Source of the DNA: Nitrospirota bacterium
Lineage (GTDB): Bacteria; Nitrospirota; Thermodesulfovibrionia; Thermodesulfovibrionales; Dissulfurispiraceae
Length of the DNA stretch: 44,600 nucleotides
Assembly (NCBI GenBank): GCA_023476565.1
Contig: JAMCVZ010000020.1
Coordinates: forward strand, 1 to 44,600
Direction of reading: 5' to 3'
How positions within the stretch are numbered: the stretch's first letter is position 1; every line of letters starts with the position of its first letter. Made by a program: the position numbers and the translations under genes. Below are positions 3,777 to 21,207 of this stretch, piece by piece. The notes below the pieces were generated by a model. That model worked only from the letters and a program-made list of their open reading frames with translations, did no database searches and had not been told where the DNA came from.

Positions 3777-3844
3777 GCGTTATAGGGTTATAGCGCTTTA
3801 GCACAAAAGCAGAAATCAAAATCTCCGTTCAACGCTATAACGCG
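3777..3844. repeat. GCGTTATAGCG-type intergenic repeat between selA and dgt
   Basis: GCGTTATAGGGTTATAGCGC (3777-3796) and the oppositely oriented AACGCTATAACGCG (3831-3844) form an inverted repeat around a short A-rich spacer. The right arm runs through the selA stop codon. Near-identical CGCTATAACGC units recur at 8244-8312 and 33503-33578. Confidence 0.55.
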
Positions 3845-5241
3845 TTTAAAATGCCCTTTACCAGAGCATCGATTTCACTATTCCTCACTGTCCTTGCATC
3901 AATAATTAAGGCATCGCTCTTTATCCGGGCGATTATGGGGGGATTACCCTGCCTCAGCCTCTCCTCGAGTGTATTTACGGAAATGCGCAAAGGATTAATA
4001 GCAACCGCATAGGTCTTGAATTCAATTTCAGGGAGAGAGCCTCCCCCGGCTTGTGATGAATCCTCAATAACGTCGATCTCCGCAACATCGCCGGGTATCC
4101 GGCTAACCTCTTTCTTAAGCCGCGATGCGATCCTTTTCGCCCGTTCCTTTATGTCCATATGCCTCTGCAGCAGCATTTCCAGAGTAGGGATGCTACCCTT
4201 TGCTTTATCTTCATCAAGGTAGCACATCAGGACAGCCTCAAAAGCAGACAGGGTCAGCTTGTCTATTCTCACCGCCCTCATTAGAGGATTTTTAACTATA
4301 TTTTCAATGAGTTCAGACTTGCCGACAATCACCCCGCCCTGTGGTCCGCCAAGGAGTTTATCACCGCTGAAGGTCACTATATCAGCCCCTGCCTTTATGA
4401 TTTCCTGGACTGTCGGCTCGATCTGTATCCCGTAGGGCTTAAGGTCAACAAGGCTGCCGCTTCCAAGATCGAACATTACGGGAATGCCATGTTTCATCCC
4501 GAGCGCTGCCAGCTCGTTGATCGGGACCGATTCACTAAAACCGACTATTCTGTAATTCGACTGGTGCACCTTCAATAAGAGTGCCGTATTTTCACTTATC
4601 GCTCTCTCATAATCACGAAGGTGGGTCTTGTTGGTGGCGCCGACCTCTTTGAGAAGAGCGCCGCTGCTGCTCATAACATCGGGAATCCTAAAGGAACCCC
4701 CAATCTCCACGAGTTCTCCCCTTGAGACAATAACCTCCCTGCCCTTTGCCAGCGCAGTCAGGCAGACAAACACCGCTGCTGCATTATTATTGACGATAAG
4801 ACTGCTTTCAGCGCCCGTAATTTCATTGAGGAGTTTTCGGATATGGGAATACCGCTTGCCCCGCTTGCCTTCTTCCAGTTCATATTCAAGATTGGAGTAT
4901 CCACATGCAACTCTTTTGACGTTCTCCATAATCTCTTCAGACATGACGGACCTCCCGAGATTTGTATGGATCACTATACCGGTTGCATTAATGACCGGCT
5001 TCAGGCTGAATGCCGAAAGCAGCTCTATATGCCCGCGGATATCGACAAGCATATCTTTAACCGAAATTTCTTTGAGATCATCTTTGAGAATTGCCCGCCT
5101 GCTTTCGTCTATTACCTCGCGGATTGCCCGGAGGACATACCGCCTCGGATATGCCTTTTGCCACTCCAACCCTTCCCCGGACTTCAGGATTTCATCGACC
5201 GAGGGAAGAGATGCCAATAGCTGCTGTTTGTCCATTTTCAT
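3835..5241 (-). CDS. selA: L-seryl-tRNA(Sec) selenium transferase
   Basis: SelA is a PLP enzyme that converts seryl-tRNA(Sec) to selenocysteyl-tRNA(Sec) using selenophosphate. The protein (468 aa) opens with LPSVDEILKS, as SelA usually does. It carries VINATGIVIHTNLGRS near 85-100 and the PLP-lysine region SGDKLLGGPQGGVIVG. Length is normal for the family. Two neighbouring ATGs are possible (5241, MKMDKQQ; 5235, MDKQQ); a GGAG lies 3 and 9 nt before them respectively, so 5235 may be the true start. A TTG at 5256 is less likely. No selB, selD or tRNA(Sec) is in the window. Its presence implies the organism makes selenoproteins. dgt follows on the same strand. Confidence 0.93.
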   Translation of the reverse strand: MKMDKQQLLASLPSVDEILKSGEGLEWQKAYPRRYVLRAIREVIDESRRAILKDDLKEISVKDMLVDIRGHIELLSAFSLKPVINATGIVIHTNLGRSVMSEEIMENVKRVACGYSNLEYELEEGKRGKRYSHIRKLLNEITGAESSLIVNNNAAAVFVCLTALAKGREVIVSRGELVEIGGSFRIPDVMSSSGALLKEVGATNKTHLRDYERAISENTALLLKVHQSNYRIVGFSESVPINELAALGMKHGIPVMFDLGSGSLVDLKPYGIQIEPTVQEIIKAGADIVTFSGDKLLGGPQGGVIVGKSELIENIVKNPLMRAVRIDKLTLSAFEAVLMCYLDEDKAKGSIPTLEMLLQRHMDIKERAKRIASRLKKEVSRIPGDVAEIDVIEDSSQAGGGSLPEIEFKTYAVAINPLRISVNTLEERLRQGNPPIIARIKSDALIIDARTVRNSEIDALVKGILNAL

Positions 5242-5456
5242 GTACTCCGTTGCCAAGCCCGTAATTTACCGGCTTTCGCGTTAATTTACATGAAATGTGC
5301 AAGCCGGATGTCCGGACAGCACTGATATTTTTATTTTACCTTTTTACCTAAAGGCTTTTCAAAGACAATGGGTTTATATTATTATACATGCTCTGCCAAT
5401 TTTAGATTTAGGATTTATAGCAGCAATCATAAATCATCAATATATTTGGAGGTCGT

Positions 5457-13326: not shown

Positions 13327-14430
13327 GTGTCAATGGCCCTTGACAGCGGCCGTATCCCCTGGTACGCTTGCCTTATGAGTGAGTATATCAGCGACATGTA
13401 TGATCTGTGCAGCGAGATTGCAAAGGCCCGGGACCTCGACACTACCCTGAATATCCTTGTAAAGAGCATTACAGCGATTATGGGAGTGAAGGGCGCGTCC
13501 GTCAGACTCCTGGATGAGAAGAACCAGACCCTGCGGGTAGCTGCAGCCTACGGGTTGAGCAAATCTTACATAGATAAGGGGCCGCTGGTGCTTGCCGAGA
13601 ACCCGGTGGAAAGGGAGATACTCGGGGGCAAGGTGGTCAGCACCAAGGACATTACCCAAGAGCCCGATGTTGTTTATCGTGAAGAAGCCGCGTGGGAAGG
13701 CATAAAATCCATCCTCAACATGCCGCTCATGGCAGGAGACCGGGCAATAGGTATTATAAGAATATACACCTCGGAGCCGCATGAATTTACCCCCGAAGAG
13801 ATCGAAAGGCTCAGGGGTCTCTCCTCCTTCGGCGGGATCATTGTGGACAGGGCGAAACTCTGGGACGAAATGCGCGCCCTCACCTGCATAGCCCAATCCA
13901 TAAGCTCCACGCTGTCCCTTGAGGAGGTCCTTCAAATTATTGCTGAAAACGCAGCACGCGCGCTCGGGATGCGGGCCTCTTCAATCAGATTGCTTGACAG
14001 TGAAGGAAAGCTCCTCGAGATGAAAGCCGCCTACGGGCTCAGCAGCACCTATCTCGGCAAAGGTCCTGTGGAACTCACCAAAAGTACTCTTGACAGGAAG
14101 TGCATAGAGGGGAGGTGCGCCCTGATCCAGGACATAAGCAAGGATGCGGAGCTCCAGTACCCTGATGAAGTAGTACAGGAAGGCATACGGGCCATGCTCT
14201 CTGTCCCGCTGAAGGTTAAGGGCAAGGCGATAGGGATCTTGAGGGTGTATGCATCGGTTCCCTACAAATTCAGCCCTTCTGAAATTGAGTTCCTGACCAC
14301 GCTCGCGTCATACGGGGCCATAGCCATCGAAAATGCCCGCCTTTATGAGCACGTTAAAAATGAATATGAGGAGCTGACAAGAGATGTTTGGAAATGGTAT
14401 GACTGGGGATCCCGCTTCCCGAATATCTGA
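13327..14430 (+). CDS. Tandem GAF-domain sensor protein preceding the hydrogenase operon
   Basis: The protein is made of two consecutive GAF domains (about 20-185 and 195-345), each with the R-L-L-D and A-A-x-G-L-S signatures (SVRLLDEKNQTLRVAAAYGL and SIRLLDSEGKLLEMKAAYGL) and ending in a P-E/S-E-I-E helix. There is no kinase, HTH, GGDEF or membrane segment, so it is a stand-alone small-ligand, redox or protein-binding sensor. The two halves are similar enough to suggest internal duplication. The frame begins at a GTG (13327); an ATG at 13375 (MSEYISDMYDL) is an equally good start, and neither has a strong ribosome site. Its 3' end overlaps the hydrogenase beta gene by 47 nt in another frame, implying co-transcription. 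Confidence 0.82.
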   Translation: MSMALDSGRIPWYACLMSEYISDMYDLCSEIAKARDLDTTLNILVKSITAIMGVKGASVRLLDEKNQTLRVAAAYGLSKSYIDKGPLVLAENPVEREILGGKVVSTKDITQEPDVVYREEAAWEGIKSILNMPLMAGDRAIGIIRIYTSEPHEFTPEEIERLRGLSSFGGIIVDRAKLWDEMRALTCIAQSISSTLSLEEVLQIIAENAARALGMRASSIRLLDSEGKLLEMKAAYGLSSTYLGKGPVELTKSTLDRKCIEGRCALIQDISKDAELQYPDEVVQEGIRAMLSVPLKVKGKAIGILRVYASVPYKFSPSEIEFLTTLASYGAIAIENARLYEHVKNEYEELTRDVWKWYDWGSRFPNI

Positions 14431-15448
14431 CCTTCTTGTTCCAAAGGCGTCTTTTTTCACGTGGCTGGATTCTTTGAGGGAGAGGCTTTCCATCATCGGT
14501 CCTGTTGCTGAAGAGGGCCGGGCCGTGTTCAGGGAAATAGCGTCTTCGGGAGAGCTTTATATGGAATATGAGTCTACGATGCTCTCTCCGGGAAAGGTTT
14601 ACCTGTGCAGCCCAAGGGAAGATCTCTTCAGGCTCTCGTTCGGGAAAGGCCTGAGCATCGAAGAGCCGCCCCGTGATTCCGCGCAGCGCATTATTGTCGG
14701 CATCCATGCGTGCGATACGAATGCCGTGCTTTACCTTGACAGGACATTCCTGGGTACTTTCAGGGACCCGCTGTATGAGGAGAGGAGGAGGAATACAATA
14801 CTCATAGCCCTGAACTGCGGCACAGCATCGAAAAACTGCTTCTGCTCATCGGTCGGCACAGGCCCTTTCCTCAAGGTGGAGAGCGGTTATGACATGCTCC
14901 TCACCGATTTCGGAGAGGATTATCTGGTTGAGATAAAGACCGCAGGGGCCCGCAGGCTTTTCGATGTGGACGATATCCGTGGAGCCGGTCACGAAGACTT
15001 CAGACTCAAGGATGAAAAAGAGCGTTCGGCGCTCCGGACATTCACAAAGACCATCAACACCGAAGGTCTCAACAAACTGCTGAGGGAAAATCCCGAACAC
15101 CCTGTCTGGAGGCATACTGCGGAGGAGCGCTGCCTCTCCTGCACCAATTGTGTCATGGTCTGTCCCACATGCTTCTGCTACGATGTGGTCGATGAAATTT
15201 CCATGGACATGAAAACGGTGAGGAGATACCGGCAGTGGGATGCATGCCAGGACACCCGTTTCGCAGAAGTGCACGGGGGAAATTTCAGGGCAAGGAGATC
15301 CGCGCGGCTGCGGCAGTTTGTGACGCATAAGCTCGATCAGATGCACCAGTACGGAGTATCCGGTACAGTGGGGTGCGGAAGGTGCATCACCTGGTGCCCC
15401 ACAGGCATAGACCTCACCGAGATGGCAAAGCAGGTGCAAGGAAAATGA
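14384..15448 (+). CDS. hydB: Group 3b [NiFe] hydrogenase, iron-sulfur beta subunit
   Basis: This 354-residue protein resembles the beta subunit of sulfhydrogenase / NADP-linked hydrogenases (also AsrA-like), an electron-transfer partner carrying two [4Fe-4S] clusters. IIVGIHACDTNAVLYLD near 105-121 is the family's central motif. The C-terminal clusters are CLSCTNCVMVCPTCFCYD (about 248-265) and CGRCITWCPTGIDL (about 330-343). Starts at 14384 or 14399 are both possible; GAGGAG lies about 10 nt before the first. It overlaps the GAF gene upstream by 47 nt and the gamma gene downstream by 4 nt, so all are likely translated from one message. Confidence 0.88.
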   Translation: MFGNGMTGDPASRISDLLVPKASFFTWLDSLRERLSIIGPVAEEGRAVFREIASSGELYMEYESTMLSPGKVYLCSPREDLFRLSFGKGLSIEEPPRDSAQRIIVGIHACDTNAVLYLDRTFLGTFRDPLYEERRRNTILIALNCGTASKNCFCSSVGTGPFLKVESGYDMLLTDFGEDYLVEIKTAGARRLFDVDDIRGAGHEDFRLKDEKERSALRTFTKTINTEGLNKLLRENPEHPVWRHTAEERCLSCTNCVMVCPTCFCYDVVDEISMDMKTVRRYRQWDACQDTRFAEVHGGNFRARRSARLRQFVTHKLDQMHQYGVSGTVGCGRCITWCPTGIDLTEMAKQVQGK

Positions 15449-16260
15449 ATCCCCTGAGACCGGTAAAGGCGATCTTAAAAAAGATAAGGCGCGAAACAGC
15501 CGATGTCAAAACCTATACCGTGCAGGTGGGCGAGGAGTTCCCCGGGGAATTGTCGCCCGGACAGTTCAATATGGTCGGCTATCCGGGAGTCGGGGAAGCG
15601 CCCCTATCGTTCAGCTCACTCCGGGATGACGGCTGCATCGAGCATACGGTGAGGGTTGTCGGCGCGGTGACCGCTTCCATAGATAAAATGACCGAAGGAG
15701 ATGAGCTTCTCCTCAGGGGCCCTTACGGACAGGGCTGGCCCATGGACAGGGCAGGAGCAGGGGATCTGCTTCTGGTCGCGGGTGGGTTGGGGCTTGCGCC
15801 CCTGCGGCCTGTGATCAGGGAGGTCCTGAAAAACAGGGACTCGTTCGGGGATGTCTTTCTCCTCTACGGCGCGAGAAATGAAAAGAATCTCCTTTTCATG
15901 GACGAGTATGAAGCATGGAGAAAGGCGATTTCGTTTCACCTCACCGTGGATGAGCTAGTGACCGATGAACGCTGGAGCCATAGTGTGGGCCTGATCACCG
16001 GCCTGCTGGACAGTGTCAAGTTTGGCGGTGGAAAGACACAGGCGTTTGTTGTAGGACCGGAAATGATGATGCGTTTCGTATGCAGGGGACTCATGATGCG
16101 TGGAGTTCATCCCTCGAAGATCTCTGTGTCTCTTGAAAGGCGCATGAAATGCGGCATCGCCCAATGCGGCCATTGCCAGCACGTCGGCTTTTTTGTATGC
16201 AAGGACGGGCCTGTGTTCACGTATAAAGAGGTGGCAGGGTTGATGGATGGACTACTGTAA
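15445..16260 (+). CDS. hydG: Group 3b hydrogenase gamma subunit (FAD/NAD(P) reductase with [2Fe-2S])
   Basis: This is a 271-residue ferredoxin-NADP reductase-like subunit (AsrB/HydG type), the diaphorase end where electrons pass to or from NAD(P). The FAD motif is in QFNMVGYPGVGEAPLSFSS; the nucleotide-binding part contains LLLVAGGLGLAPLRPVI (about 110-126). The C-terminal cluster loop is MKCGIAQCGHCQHVG with a further C in FFVCKDGP, the four-cysteine [2Fe-2S] pattern. The ATG overlaps the beta-gene stop as ATGA, which fixes the start; a longer open frame from 15373 runs inside the upstream gene. Confidence 0.9.
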   Translation: MNPLRPVKAILKKIRRETADVKTYTVQVGEEFPGELSPGQFNMVGYPGVGEAPLSFSSLRDDGCIEHTVRVVGAVTASIDKMTEGDELLLRGPYGQGWPMDRAGAGDLLLVAGGLGLAPLRPVIREVLKNRDSFGDVFLLYGARNEKNLLFMDEYEAWRKAISFHLTVDELVTDERWSHSVGLITGLLDSVKFGGGKTQAFVVGPEMMMRFVCRGLMMRGVHPSKISVSLERRMKCGIAQCGHCQHVGFFVCKDGPVFTYKEVAGLMDGLL

Positions 16261-16399: not shown

Positions 16400-17170
16400 A
16401 TGAACAAACCTCGTCTCGGGTTTTTTAAATATTCCTGCTGCGCGGGGTGCGAATTCCAGACCTTTTATTTCCAGAAGCATCTGGCTGAAACGCTCGCCGC
16501 TTTTGACATCGTCTACGCAAAGATGGTCTTGAGAGGTGGCGCCCCGGAGGGCCCCTTTGATCTGGCCCTGGTTGAGGGCACGATCACTGAGGCGTGGCAA
16601 GTGGATGAGCTCAAGAAGGTCAGAAAGAACAGCACGCTGCTTTTCGCTATAGGCGCCTGCGCGGTGAACGGAGGCATTCCCGCGATAAAGGCCCTGGCGC
16701 CGGAGCTTGAGGTTGAGGAAAAGGTCTACAAAGACCTCTCCACGATCCATTCCATAAGGCCCCAGCCCATCAATGTGTATGTTCCTGTGGATGGTTATAT
16801 CAGGGGCTGTCCTCCGGGAGCAAGGGATCTCTATGAGGCCCTCACCTCGGTGCTTGCACAAAAAAAGCCCGGCTTTCTTACATACTCCGTATGCGTGGAA
16901 TGCAAACTGGAGCGTAATATCTGTATCCTGGTCGCTTACGGCATGCCCTGCATGGGCCCGGTTACAAATGCCGGGTGCGGCGCGCTCTGTCCCACATACA
17001 AGAGGCCCTGCTATTCCTGCTTCGGCGCGATGAAACAGGCCAATGCCCCTGCACTCGCACATAAGTTCAGGAAGCTCGGGCTGTCGGAAGATGATATCAG
17101 GAGGAAATTTACCATGTTCGATGCTAACAGTGCTGAATCCCGAAAGGCGGCCGATTTCAGTGAAGATTAA
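16400..17170 (+). CDS. hydD: Group 3b [NiFe] hydrogenase small (delta) subunit
   Basis: This 256-residue small subunit carries the iron-sulfur relay next to the NiFe site. The proximal cluster residues are in YSCCAGCEFQ (near 11), GACAVNGGIP (near 77) and RGCPPG (near 135). Further cysteines in CVECKLERNIC, GMPCMGPVTNAGCGALCP and CYSCFGAM give the medial and distal clusters. There is no twin-arginine signal, so the enzyme is cytoplasmic. CGGAG lies 6 nt before the ATG. The last codons overlap the alpha-subunit start by 11 nt. Confidence 0.92.
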   Translation: MNKPRLGFFKYSCCAGCEFQTFYFQKHLAETLAAFDIVYAKMVLRGGAPEGPFDLALVEGTITEAWQVDELKKVRKNSTLLFAIGACAVNGGIPAIKALAPELEVEEKVYKDLSTIHSIRPQPINVYVPVDGYIRGCPPGARDLYEALTSVLAQKKPGFLTYSVCVECKLERNICILVAYGMPCMGPVTNAGCGALCPTYKRPCYSCFGAMKQANAPALAHKFRKLGLSEDDIRRKFTMFDANSAESRKAADFSED

Positions 17171-18386
17171 TATAGATTACATCGCCAGGGTAGAGGGCGA
17201 GAGCTCGGTAAAGCTTGAGATAGAGGGCGGAAAACTCAAAGATCTCAAGCTCAATATCTGGGAGCCCCCGCGCTTTTTTGAAGGCTTTATGGTTGGCAGG
17301 AAATTCGATGAAGTGCCGGATATCGTTGCCCGGATATGCGGCATATGCCCGGTCTCGCACATGATCACCTCCATAAGGGCTCTTGAGAAAGCCATCGGCT
17401 TTATCCCCTCGGATGAGATTGTAAGGATCAGGAGAATCATGGCATTAAGTCAGATCATGGCGAGCCACGTCGTGCATCTCTATGTGCTTGCGCTTCCGGA
17501 TTATCACAAGCTCGGCATGATAACAGGACTCGACAAAGAGATCAGGAGGCTTTTAAGGATGAAGGAGGCATTGAATGGCATAACAGCCGCATTCGGGGGT
17601 AGGGCGCTCCATCCGGTTGCCATGATTGTCGGCGGATTCCCGAAGCTGCCGCAGAGGGATATCATCGGCATTCTCATCGGCGGACTTGAAGGCATACGAG
17701 GAGATGCACACGAGACTCTGAAGATGATAGCAGAGCTTGATATCCCTTTATTTGAGCCTGAAACAGAGCATGTCGCCCTCAGCGGAGATATAAACAAAGG
17801 CATTATTGTTTCTGACCTCGGGCTCAGGACAGATGAAGATGTGTACAGCAGTTCATTCGAAGAGCGTGAACTCCCTTATTCAAATGCAAAGAGGACGGTA
17901 GTGAAGGGCAGGGGCTCGATTATGGTCGGCGCCTTTTCGAGGCTCAATCTCAACCTGGACAAGCTCCACCCGGAGGCGAAAAGGGCTGCACAGGAAATCG
18001 GATTTGCCCCGCCACTCAAGAATCCCTTTATGAATAATGTCGCTCAGGCCATTGAGATAATTTGCGGCATAGAGGAATGCATTGAGCTCCTCGATGGCTT
18101 TACCGGCAAGGATAATTTTATAATGCCCAAACTCAGAGAGGGGGCGGGCTCTGCAGTCACCGAGGCCCCGCGCGGACTCCTCTATCACCATTACCAATTG
18201 AACCGTCAAGGTGTAGTGGAGAGGGCCAATATCGTAACCCCTACCGCACACAACTTCCTCAGTCTTGAGGAGGCATTAAAAAAACTCGCGAGTGAAAATA
18301 TAAATCTTCCTGAAGACGAGATCGTGTTCAAATGCGAAATGCTCGTCAGGGCATATGACCCGTGCTTCTCGTGCTCGGTACACTGA
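17160..18386 (+). CDS. hydA: Group 3b [NiFe] hydrogenase large (alpha) subunit, catalytic
   Basis: The catalytic subunit (408 aa) binds the Ni-Fe centre through two CxxC motifs: RICGICPVSH (C60, C63) and the C-terminal DPCFSCSVH (C402, C405). Gene order beta-gamma-delta-alpha, the reductase subunit and lack of export signals mark a soluble bidirectional NAD(P)-linked group 3b enzyme. The protein ends exactly at the conserved histidine: the next codon is TGA, so the usual C-terminal peptide removed by a maturation protease is missing. I take the GTG at 17160 (VKINIDYIARVEGE), where homology begins; an ATG at 17121 would add 13 residues. No hyp or protease genes are in the window. Confidence 0.92.
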   Translation: MKINIDYIARVEGESSVKLEIEGGKLKDLKLNIWEPPRFFEGFMVGRKFDEVPDIVARICGICPVSHMITSIRALEKAIGFIPSDEIVRIRRIMALSQIMASHVVHLYVLALPDYHKLGMITGLDKEIRRLLRMKEALNGITAAFGGRALHPVAMIVGGFPKLPQRDIIGILIGGLEGIRGDAHETLKMIAELDIPLFEPETEHVALSGDINKGIIVSDLGLRTDEDVYSSSFEERELPYSNAKRTVVKGRGSIMVGAFSRLNLNLDKLHPEAKRAAQEIGFAPPLKNPFMNNVAQAIEIICGIEECIELLDGFTGKDNFIMPKLREGAGSAVTEAPRGLLYHHYQLNRQGVVERANIVTPTAHNFLSLEEALKKLASENINLPEDEIVFKCEMLVRAYDPCFSCSVH

Positions 18387-18663
18387 GCGGCTTATTTTGA
18401 GAAAGCCATGGACTGCATCAAGGCGATTTAACTCTCCTCGCTGCGGCATCCCTGATATTCCAGATGCCCTGCTCCCGGGTACCAGGCGCACCGTATTCGC
18501 AAATCTTTTCGTTTCTGATATACTTCCCCATGATGATTTCAGTATTGAACAGTTCCGTCGATACTATAATCATGTTTATCAGAGGCGGGCATTCTCCTGA
18601 GTCCACGCTGTCACGTCATCCGCACCGTCACATAAAACCGCCGTCAGGCTCGTGGGGCAACAG
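18387..18663. other. Gap between hydrogenase and dynamin-like gene
   Basis: About 280 bp with no supportable gene. After the alpha-subunit TGA the frame stays open for 14 codons (ending MDCIKAI) to a TAA at about 18429. Short frames on both strands have no recognisable features and no ribosome sites. Confidence 0.4.
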
Positions 18664-21207
18664 ATGGATATCGTAAAAATCAACGGCGCTTCTTATATGC
18701 AGGGCGCTTCTGCGAAAAAGGATTTCTCCGCCCTTTTGGACAAGAAGATACTTCTGGAGGACGACATCCCGGTCTTCCAGTTTGTCGATAATGCCGGCCT
18801 TGACGGGAATTCCATCCATAATATCCGGGTCGCCAGGGAAATAGTGTTCGGCTTCACTACCTGTCTCAAACATAAGCCGACCGGGAAGGTCCTGCTCAAG
18901 CCCGGAAGTTTCAGTGAATTAATCCGGTATCTCGATGAAAAAGAGCTGTTGAATTACCGTTTTGTTTTGGAAACGGAGGACAAGGATGTCCTGAGCAGAA
19001 CAATCCAGTACCTGCTCTATCTCGACATAAACATAGAAGTGATGCTGAAGAAAGAGGAATCCGAAATAAGAAAAATGGAGCTCCTCCTGAAAATGTCCGG
19101 AGACCTGAAGCGGGCACTGGTGGATGCGAAAGGCCGGATCCATAACCGGGGCAAGCATGATGCGATAAGGGAGTACAGAAGCACAATCCTGTATACTCTG
19201 GCCGAGATTGAGACAAATCTGGGGGAGATGCAGGGAAAAGACCTGAAAGTGGCGATCATGGCCCTCAAGAAGTCGGGAAAGAGTGTTGTTGTCAACTGCC
19301 TGCTGGGCGGGGATTATGCGCCTGCAAGCGTAGAGCTCCCCACGTTCACCACCTGCGTATACAGGAAAAGGGAGGGCAAAAAAATATCCCTGGCCTATAA
19401 AGACAACACACTCTCTTTTGACAGCCCCGAAGCTTTGAAGAAGTATATCCTGAATGAATTTAAAAGCATTCATATCGACAAAACGGAATACGCCCCCGAC
19501 GATTGTATGTATGTAAGTTACATCCCCAACAAAGACAGCTTGTGCAACTACACGATTATCGATACGCCGGGACCCGACCTTGCAGGGGATTATTACAAGA
19601 ATATCGCATACAGGTGGATAGGAGAGGCGGACATCATACTGTTCATTATCGATTACTCAAAGCACCTCACCAACAGCGAGGAGGAATTTTTCAGGGCCAT
19701 AAAGAGGGTGTTCGAGGAGCATCAGAAGTTCTATTCCTTTATTGTAATCGTCAACAAGCTCGATCTCATGTATTTAAGCGAAGAGAAGAAATCCGGCCTC
19801 AGATTTATAGATTTCCTGAGGTCGAAACTCAAGGACCTGGGGTATAAGGGGTTCACCGTTTTCGGGATTTCCGCACTGCAGTACATCTACTCTCTTACAG
19901 CCCCCCAGATAGCGGGCTGCGGGGATTTGAATACCAATGACGGCAAAAAGCTCAGGGAGTATCTGGATAAATGCCTGCAGCTCTATCAGGGCAAGGACGA
20001 GATGACGTCCCTGTCTTTCCTTGATAACCAGATAAGAAATTTGTTGCGGTTTCACGGGAAAGAGGATGCAACCCTGCAAGACCTCAAAGAAAAGAGCGGC
20101 GTCGAGCATCTGATGAAATATATCAATTACATCGCGATGGAAAAGGCCCACATCGAGCTCTTCAATCACAAACTGTCGCTTATAGACAGGAAACTCGCGG
20201 AATTCCGCACTAATTTTATCGGGGACCTCCTTGACCGCCTCGAAGAAGACAGCCGCACGCTGGAAAGGACGATAAGCGATATAACACACTTCAGAGAGGA
20301 GATGCTGACAGATGCAAAGCAGGATTTCAAGCCCGAAGAGATCCTGAACAGCATAGAGAAGGACGTAAACCTTGCCCGGAAGTCCCTTTACAAGGTGCTC
20401 ACTATGCATATGGAGAACATCGAGAAGCACCTGGTCAAGATCATCAAATCGCTGTCGAATGCCGAACTCGTATCGTTCCAGAAGGGCAATAGCCTGAAGG
20501 CGATCGGGGACATGTTTTACAAGATCGAAAAAGGCATCATAGAGAAATTATATGCACCGGTCCTGGGGAAGCATTGCGGAAGCTTAAACAAGGAGCTGGC
20601 CGCACGGAACAAAAGGTTCGGAGAATTCAAGGGAACAATACAGGAAAAGATATCCGACCTCGACATGCACTTTAAAAAGAATTACCGGTTGAACTGCTCG
20701 GACGTTGTGCTGCCCGGAGTGCCGGACTCTTTCACCAGGTTCGATTTCGCTCCTATCGTCATGAGGCTGGACGACCTTTTCGCCCAATCCCTCATCAAGG
20801 AGCGGCTTATAAGGAAGAGAGGGCTTCTGGGTTCGCTGCTTATGGTTACCTCCCTCGGATTTATAAATGTCAAAACCGGAAAATTCAAATTCGACGATAT
20901 AAAACTGAAAAAGGCGCTCCTCCTCGAAAGAAAGAGCCTTGACGGCAATACGCAGCAGCAGGTCGACGAGATGCACAGAAAGCTGCTGTCGCATATAAGC
21001 GTCCACCTCAATCGCCTGGAAAACAGCCTCCTGGAGACATACGGCGCATTTGAAAATGACTGCACGACCGTTTTTAATAATTTCACCGATGATCTGAAAA
21101 TATTTAAAAAGGAAATTGAATCTAAGATCGAATTCCTGAAAGAAGCGGAAAAAGGACTGGAACGGTTTACCGCCTTATGGGACAAGATAAGGACCCCCGA
21201 TCAATAA
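18664..21207 (+). CDS. Large dynamin-like GTPase
   Basis: A protein of 847 aa with a dynamin-type GTPase domain after an unfamiliar N-terminal region of about 140 residues and a helical linker. G1 is ALKKSGKS (about 200-207), with alanine where the first P-loop glycine usually is. G2 lies in ELPTFTT (about 224-230), G3 is DTPG (about 300-303) and G4 is NKLD (about 364-367). The remaining 450 residues are charged, helical and coiled-coil rich. A single hydrophobic stretch, GLLGSLLMVTSLGFI (about 720-735), resembles the membrane-inserting paddle of bacterial dynamin-like proteins. Membrane remodelling or repair is a likely role. A GTG at 18652 would add four residues; the ATG has GGGG 6 nt upstream. 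It is a single gene, without the usual paired second dynamin. Confidence 0.8.
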   Translation: MDIVKINGASYMQGASAKKDFSALLDKKILLEDDIPVFQFVDNAGLDGNSIHNIRVAREIVFGFTTCLKHKPTGKVLLKPGSFSELIRYLDEKELLNYRFVLETEDKDVLSRTIQYLLYLDINIEVMLKKEESEIRKMELLLKMSGDLKRALVDAKGRIHNRGKHDAIREYRSTILYTLAEIETNLGEMQGKDLKVAIMALKKSGKSVVVNCLLGGDYAPASVELPTFTTCVYRKREGKKISLAYKDNTLSFDSPEALKKYILNEFKSIHIDKTEYAPDDCMYVSYIPNKDSLCNYTIIDTPGPDLAGDYYKNIAYRWIGEADIILFIIDYSKHLTNSEEEFFRAIKRVFEEHQKFYSFIVIVNKLDLMYLSEEKKSGLRFIDFLRSKLKDLGYKGFTVFGISALQYIYSLTAPQIAGCGDLNTNDGKKLREYLDKCLQLYQGKDEMTSLSFLDNQIRNLLRFHGKEDATLQDLKEKSGVEHLMKYINYIAMEKAHIELFNHKLSLIDRKLAEFRTNFIGDLLDRLEEDSRTLERTISDITHFREEMLTDAKQDFKPEEILNSIEKDVNLARKSLYKVLTMHMENIEKHLVKIIKSLSNAELVSFQKGNSLKAIGDMFYKIEKGIIEKLYAPVLGKHCGSLNKELAARNKRFGEFKGTIQEKISDLDMHFKKNYRLNCSDVVLPGVPDSFTRFDFAPIVMRLDDLFAQSLIKERLIRKRGLLGSLLMVTSLGFINVKTGKFKFDDIKLKKALLLERKSLDGNTQQQVDEMHRKLLSHISVHLNRLENSLLETYGAFENDCTTVFNNFTDDLKIFKKEIESKIEFLKEAEKGLERFTALWDKIRTPDQ

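Follow-up and report, generated by a model that had tools for sequence, protein, structure and literature searches.

A group 3b-type [NiFe] hydrogenase large subunit from a Nitrospirota bacterium that ends at its final conserved histidine and is predicted to mature without proteolysis

The large (alpha) subunit of a group 3b-type [NiFe] hydrogenase from a Nitrospirota bacterium ends exactly at its final conserved histidine and has no native C-terminal extension. It is very probably a complete and functional subunit that is translated in its mature form, is matured by the Hyp proteins without proteolysis, and needs no HycI/HydD-type endopeptidase. This was also the main reading of a preliminary description of the same DNA, a stretch of 44,600 nucleotides referred to here as the window, and the comparative evidence supports it. 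Peptide-less group 3b enzymes thus seem to have dispensed with a step of maturation that is generally considered necessary.

The C-terminal peptide of [NiFe] large subunits is regarded as a checkpoint. In the accepted model, it keeps the active site from closing before nickel has been inserted and is then cut (PMC12134894, cited, like PMC7294309 and PMC12342949 below, from the portion available). Large subunits that naturally lack the peptide are found in groups 2b, 2d, 4c, 4e, and 4g (PMC7294309, PMC12134894), and these seem to be Hyp-matured all the same (PMC7294309). Group 3 is missing from the lists of exceptions in the available portions of both papers. Genetic removal of the HoxG extension from the membrane-bound hydrogenase (MBH) of R. 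eutropha, which leaves a pre-processed subunit ending at the His, gives an enzyme that is still active, and the same removal in R. eutropha SH and E. coli Hyd-2 gives enzymes with no nickel or cofactor (PMC7294309). Peptide loss is therefore not neutral in every enzyme, and the importance of the peptide has been termed ambiguous (PMC7294309). Group 3b is a subgroup in which both kinds occur together.

A 2025 paper describes group 3b enzymes in Nitrospirales genomes without a protease, closed genomes included, and considers alternative maturation or loss of function (PMC12342949, available portion). The term "C-terminal" has 0 occurrences in its main text. A literature search, judged by titles and the first part of abstracts, returned no paper about peptide-less group 3b enzymes, and an earlier mention elsewhere is possible. 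The observations below turn the published puzzle into a simple prediction that can be checked at the last codons of the alpha gene.

The alpha gene, its operon, and its stop codon

The alpha frame extends on the forward strand from a GTG start at 17160 to 18386 and encodes 408 residues by reading-frame translation. Its best match among solved structures is the alpha subunit of sulfhydrogenase 1 (E 4.6e-72), followed by the cytosolic enzyme of T. kodakarensis (E 1e-68), with MvhA well behind (E 4.3e-43). HydA and ShyA are the top NCBIfam models, yet alpha scores under their strict equivalog cut-offs. The HydA match (E 4.7e-78) covers model positions 4-422 of 426, and so the last 4 model positions, which make up the peptide, are missing from alpha. 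All four Ni-ligand cysteines are present, with RxCGxC as RICGIC (residues 58-63; 17331..17348, forward strand) and DPCxxC as DPCFSC within DPCFSCSVH, the last residues of the protein (18357..18383, forward strand).

Three further subunit genes precede alpha on the same strand. These are the 4Fe-4S beta subunit (14384..15448; ShyB E 1.2e-54, Fer4_22), the gamma subunit with its FAD/NAD(P)H module (15445..16260; AsrB E 5e-61, ShyC 8.5e-49, HydG 1.5e-47, NAD_binding_1), and the small (delta) hydrogenase subunit (16400..17170; HydD E 1.2e-48, Oxidored_q6), with all E-values from NCBIfam models. The four-gene operon is intact, and its order, beta-gamma-delta-alpha, comprises the group 3b subunit set. 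Judged by its closeness to sulfhydrogenase alpha over MvhA, the content of the operon, and the Ni-ligand motifs, alpha is a group 3b subunit. Directly 5' of the beta gene, and overlapping it by 47 bases, lies a gene for a two-GAF-domain protein (13327-14430). A dynamin-family GTPase of 851 aa is encoded about 270 bases 3' of the operon (18652-21207).

The nearest structural and family relatives, P. furiosus sulfhydrogenase I and T. kodakarensis HyhL, share the subunit set and the Ni-ligand motifs with the window enzyme. They differ in that the archaeal precursor model extends 4 positions past the His and the window alpha is tail-less. The group 3b hydrogenases of P. furiosus and T. kodakarensis are served by a dedicated protease.

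The preliminary description had noted that alpha finishes DPCFSCSVH-TGA and that 14 open codons follow, which the sequence confirms. The TGA lies at 18384..18386 on the forward strand, and the open codons (AAYFEKAMDCIKAI) with the TAA that closes them (18429-18431) occupy 18387..18431. The description had offered as an alternative that the TGA is read as selenocysteine and that translation runs on through the 14 codons to give a short C-terminal tail. A selA gene, which it had also reported, is present in the window (3835..5256, reverse strand; TIGR00474, 614 bits), and another hydrogenase frame of the genome has two in-frame TGA codons. Both fit a capacity for selenocysteine; those TGA codons are not in alpha. 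The 14 open codons carry no meaning by themselves because a run of this length stays open by chance about half of the time ((61/64)^14 = 0.51). The nearest relative, with 82% identity, has TAA at the equivalent place with unrelated sequence downstream, and two related species have TAA (G054) and TGA (G043) there. In the clade of 17 to which the window protein belongs, all 17 end exactly at the His, and the stops are TAA in 11, TGA in 4, and TAG in 2. A selenocysteine codon is expected to be conserved or replaced by Cys, with coding sequence after it, and position 18384 is instead TAA or TAG in 13/17. No SECIS-like hairpin, which the description had suggested looking for, is observed after the TGA: the 60 nt from the TGA give z = +0.49, with 136/200 shuffles folding as well. 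In 69/73 extended relatives, the genuine tail opens with F, L, M, or V, and the 14-codon tail does not. Selenocysteine recoding is rejected as exceedingly unlikely, given the stops of the homologues, the unconserved tail, and the lack of a fold. The TGA is an ordinary stop, since all three stops interchange within the clade and nothing after it is conserved, and the 14 codons are noncoding.

A normal short extension could also have been lost through a sequencing or assembly error. The draft state of the assembly is the sole point in favor of such an error, and the identical ending is found in 64/395 genomes of the phylum. An error at the stop is rejected on this count and has a negligible probability. 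The two findings that the preliminary description had named as contrary to its reading, a conserved 14-codon extension and a sequencing error at the stop, were both looked for, and neither was found.

C-termini and proteases across the phylum

Group 3b alpha subunits are encoded in 184/395 phylum genomes (E <= 1e-55). The DPCxxCxxH-stop pattern occurs in 70/395 genomes and the reversed-pattern control in 3/395, so ending exactly at the His is not due to chance. The SCSVH form, picked by eye from 76 sites, accounts for 64/395 genomes. On visual inspection, the other 12/76 sites, e.g., DPCLVCTVH and DPCIACATH, were judged to be chance matches or to belong to other types of hydrogenase and were excluded. 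Hydrogenase-like genes with the DPCLVCTVH-stop and DPCIACATH-stop endings (G036:C43, G048:C60, G399:C24, and G034:C21; G172:C23 and G292:C99) may be further peptide-less types.

Of 134 chosen alpha loci, 131 were read to their end, one of them from outside the phylum. The three rows left out are L045 and L109, with alpha split over frames, and L106, with no alpha match; a scan of the contig collection gave one relative only. The number of residues after the His is 0 in 58 of the 131 alphas, 4-24 in 73, and 1-3 in none. The window alpha belongs to the first class, with a frame that goes no further than the His following the last motif and 0 residues of the short peptide that is customary, if not a formal criterion, for group 3b. 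All 58 peptide-less proteins end in CSVH, which precedes the tail in only 12/73 extended proteins. Stop codon usage is alike in the two classes (TGA 28, TAA 21, and TAG 9 in peptide-less genes; 37, 27, and 9 in extended genes). Plasmid-borne group 3b genes from Burkholderiales and Actinomycetota have 9-residue tails in 4/4 cases, and a maturation protease adjoins the gene in 3/3 annotated records.

Linked proteases were searched with a HycI profile built here, at loci with at least 700 nt downstream; 10 loci with shorter flanks are not counted. A HycI-type endopeptidase gene lies directly 3' of 31/69 extended genes and 0/52 peptide-less genes (Fisher 1e-9, a p-value that is only indicative as the loci are related). 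By laxer rules, HycI is near 2 further extended loci. The remaining 36/69 extended genes have no HycI in the flanking DNA examined and would need the protease from elsewhere in the genome.

The contrast reaches down to genomes without any such protease. HycI (PF01750) is absent from 12/64 peptide-less genomes vs 3/124 other group 3b genomes, and at ≥90% completeness from 7/51 vs 0/105; absence in a draft genome may reflect incomplete assembly. The genome sets were compiled by hand, with sizes of 184 and 234 that agree with the tallies, the 64 were selected by us, and for the ≥90% set only the completeness column was used. In one of the three HycI-free genomes of the other class (G385), a contig end cuts alpha before the tail. 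Six of the seven HycI-free genomes at ≥90% (G054, G170, G206, G211, G235, and G267) have the peptide-less alpha as their only PF00374 gene above the cut-off, and HypD is present in all six. The seventh, G324, is not a clean case, since its alpha frame is split and it encodes additional hydrogenases. HycI-free genomes are found in both large peptide-less groups.

Most peptide-less genomes (52/64) still hold a HycI gene. The window genome has a single one, on another contig, where it follows a group 1 large-subunit gene at a distance of about 0.8 kb; the protein from that gene carries 15 residues beyond its motif as a C-terminal peptide. The protease that the preliminary description had proposed to look for elsewhere in the genome thus sits beside a peptide-bearing hydrogenase. 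In the 52 genomes HycI presumably serves another hydrogenase, a point checked in the window genome only.

Maturation, function, and origin of the peptide-less enzymes

Maturation would begin in an open apo-form, which receives Fe(CN)2CO and Ni from the Hyp proteins. The C-terminus would then close spontaneously and the small subunit would join, with no proteolysis. Folding or subunit docking could serve as the check for correct cofactor filling, a role that has been proposed for them in the H2-sensing hydrogenases. This scheme is inferred from other peptide-less groups, which seem to be Hyp-matured, and from pre-processed MBH, which is active; the order of its steps and the activity of the peptide-less group 3b enzyme are predictions. 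The H2-sensing enzymes (2b/2d) and groups 4c, 4e, and 4g resemble the window enzyme in the natural absence of an extension and in the Hyp-dependent cofactor placement that is predicted for the latter, as described in the available portions of the cited papers, and differ in belonging to other phylogenetic groups. MBH without the HoxG extension likewise has a large subunit made pre-processed with a His end (PMC7294309, available portion); it is engineered, whereas the window enzyme is natural and is predicted to be of a soluble, NAD(P)H-dependent type. A protease-independent group 3b enzyme would save one helper gene in heterologous production.

The peptide-less enzymes could instead be decaying or non-functional, with the protease lost along with them, as raised for the protease-free group 3b genomes of Nitrospirales (PMC12342949, available portion). 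Those enzymes resemble the present ones in occurring in genomes that lack the protease; here, peptide absence offers a direct cause, and the families are others within what is taken to be the same phylum. In two cases (G045:C7:122186-123444 and G324:C54), a peptide-less alpha gene is spread over two frames, through either gene breakage or an assembly error. The remaining observations argue against decay. In seven pairs of peptide-less genes, dN/dS is about 0.05-0.17, indicating purifying selection, and both Ni-ligand motifs are retained in the window protein, which speaks against decay without establishing activity. The CSVH end is exact and uniform in 58/58 proteins, HypD is retained, and the window operon is intact. 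Decay is accordingly given a very low probability. It is just as improbable that the HycI of the genome still acts on the enzyme, e.g., as a Ni-dependent checkpoint chaperone that does not cleave. Retention of the gene in 52/64 genomes would suit such a role, but the enzyme is present and HycI absent in six genomes, and no HycI gene adjoins any of the 52 peptide-less genes.

Maturation without the protease might be accompanied by changes elsewhere in the subunit. The N-terminal tail, which in HyhL is the part that binds HypA (PMC12134894, available portion), was compared as a test for compensation. The nearest start lies 4-12 residues before the xRVEG motif in peptide-less proteins and 1-23 in extended ones, with much overlap and an uncertain choice of start. 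Only Val407 and Leu107 passed the filter for residues convergent in the peptide-less clades, with Val407 in 57/57 proteins of the two clades vs 13/71 extended ones. Their connection to peptide loss is suggestive only.

In a tree of 130 alpha rows, built by a quick method that gave long-branch warnings, the peptide-less proteins fall into two clades, of 17 and 40 members, plus a singleton (G328), all placed inside extended ones. The clade of 17, which includes the window protein, has SH-aLRT support of 99. The tree requires 3 label changes, of which the starred branches force 2. Joining the two big peptide-less groups into a single clade is not rejected by the AU test (p 0.228). The two forced changes and the unrejected single large clade together imply at least two events, one of which rests on the single sequence from G328. 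Group 3b has probably lost the peptide on at least two occasions, each time along with the protease and each time where Val precedes the His, which would provide a natural set for comparing self-proofreading, protease-free Ni-Fe insertion with that of close extended relatives. The G328 protein (L072) is a lone peptide-less alpha nested among relatives with tails of 4-7 residues. If correctly placed in the tree, it would represent the peptide loss that looks most recent.

A second hydrogenase with two in-frame TGA codons

Outside the window, the same genome encodes a group 1 [NiFe] large subunit (C2:60366-61916, L001) with the N-terminal motif RI-TGA-GV-TGA (RIUGVU). Both N-terminal ligand cysteines are replaced by in-frame TGA codons, and the C-terminal DPCMACAVH is intact. 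The pattern occurs in 72/395 phylum genomes and in 0 with the reversed control. In the 30 double-TGA loci that were read, no stop other than these two TGA codons interrupts the frame up to its end or that of the locus. Nucleotide conservation around them goes beyond what the codons require and includes synonymous positions, and the second TGA is followed at about 20 nt by a short hairpin with little covariation. For the copy in this genome, single-sequence folding does not outperform that of shuffled sequences (z -0.73 and +1.12). A table in a 2026 review shows UxxC and CxxU motifs for hydrogenase subunits (PMC13188914, available portion), and a literature search judged by titles and the first part of abstracts found no paper describing a double-selenocysteine N-terminal pair. 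On the pattern of codons and its conservation, both residues of the N-terminal ligand pair in the group 1 enzyme are likely selenocysteine.
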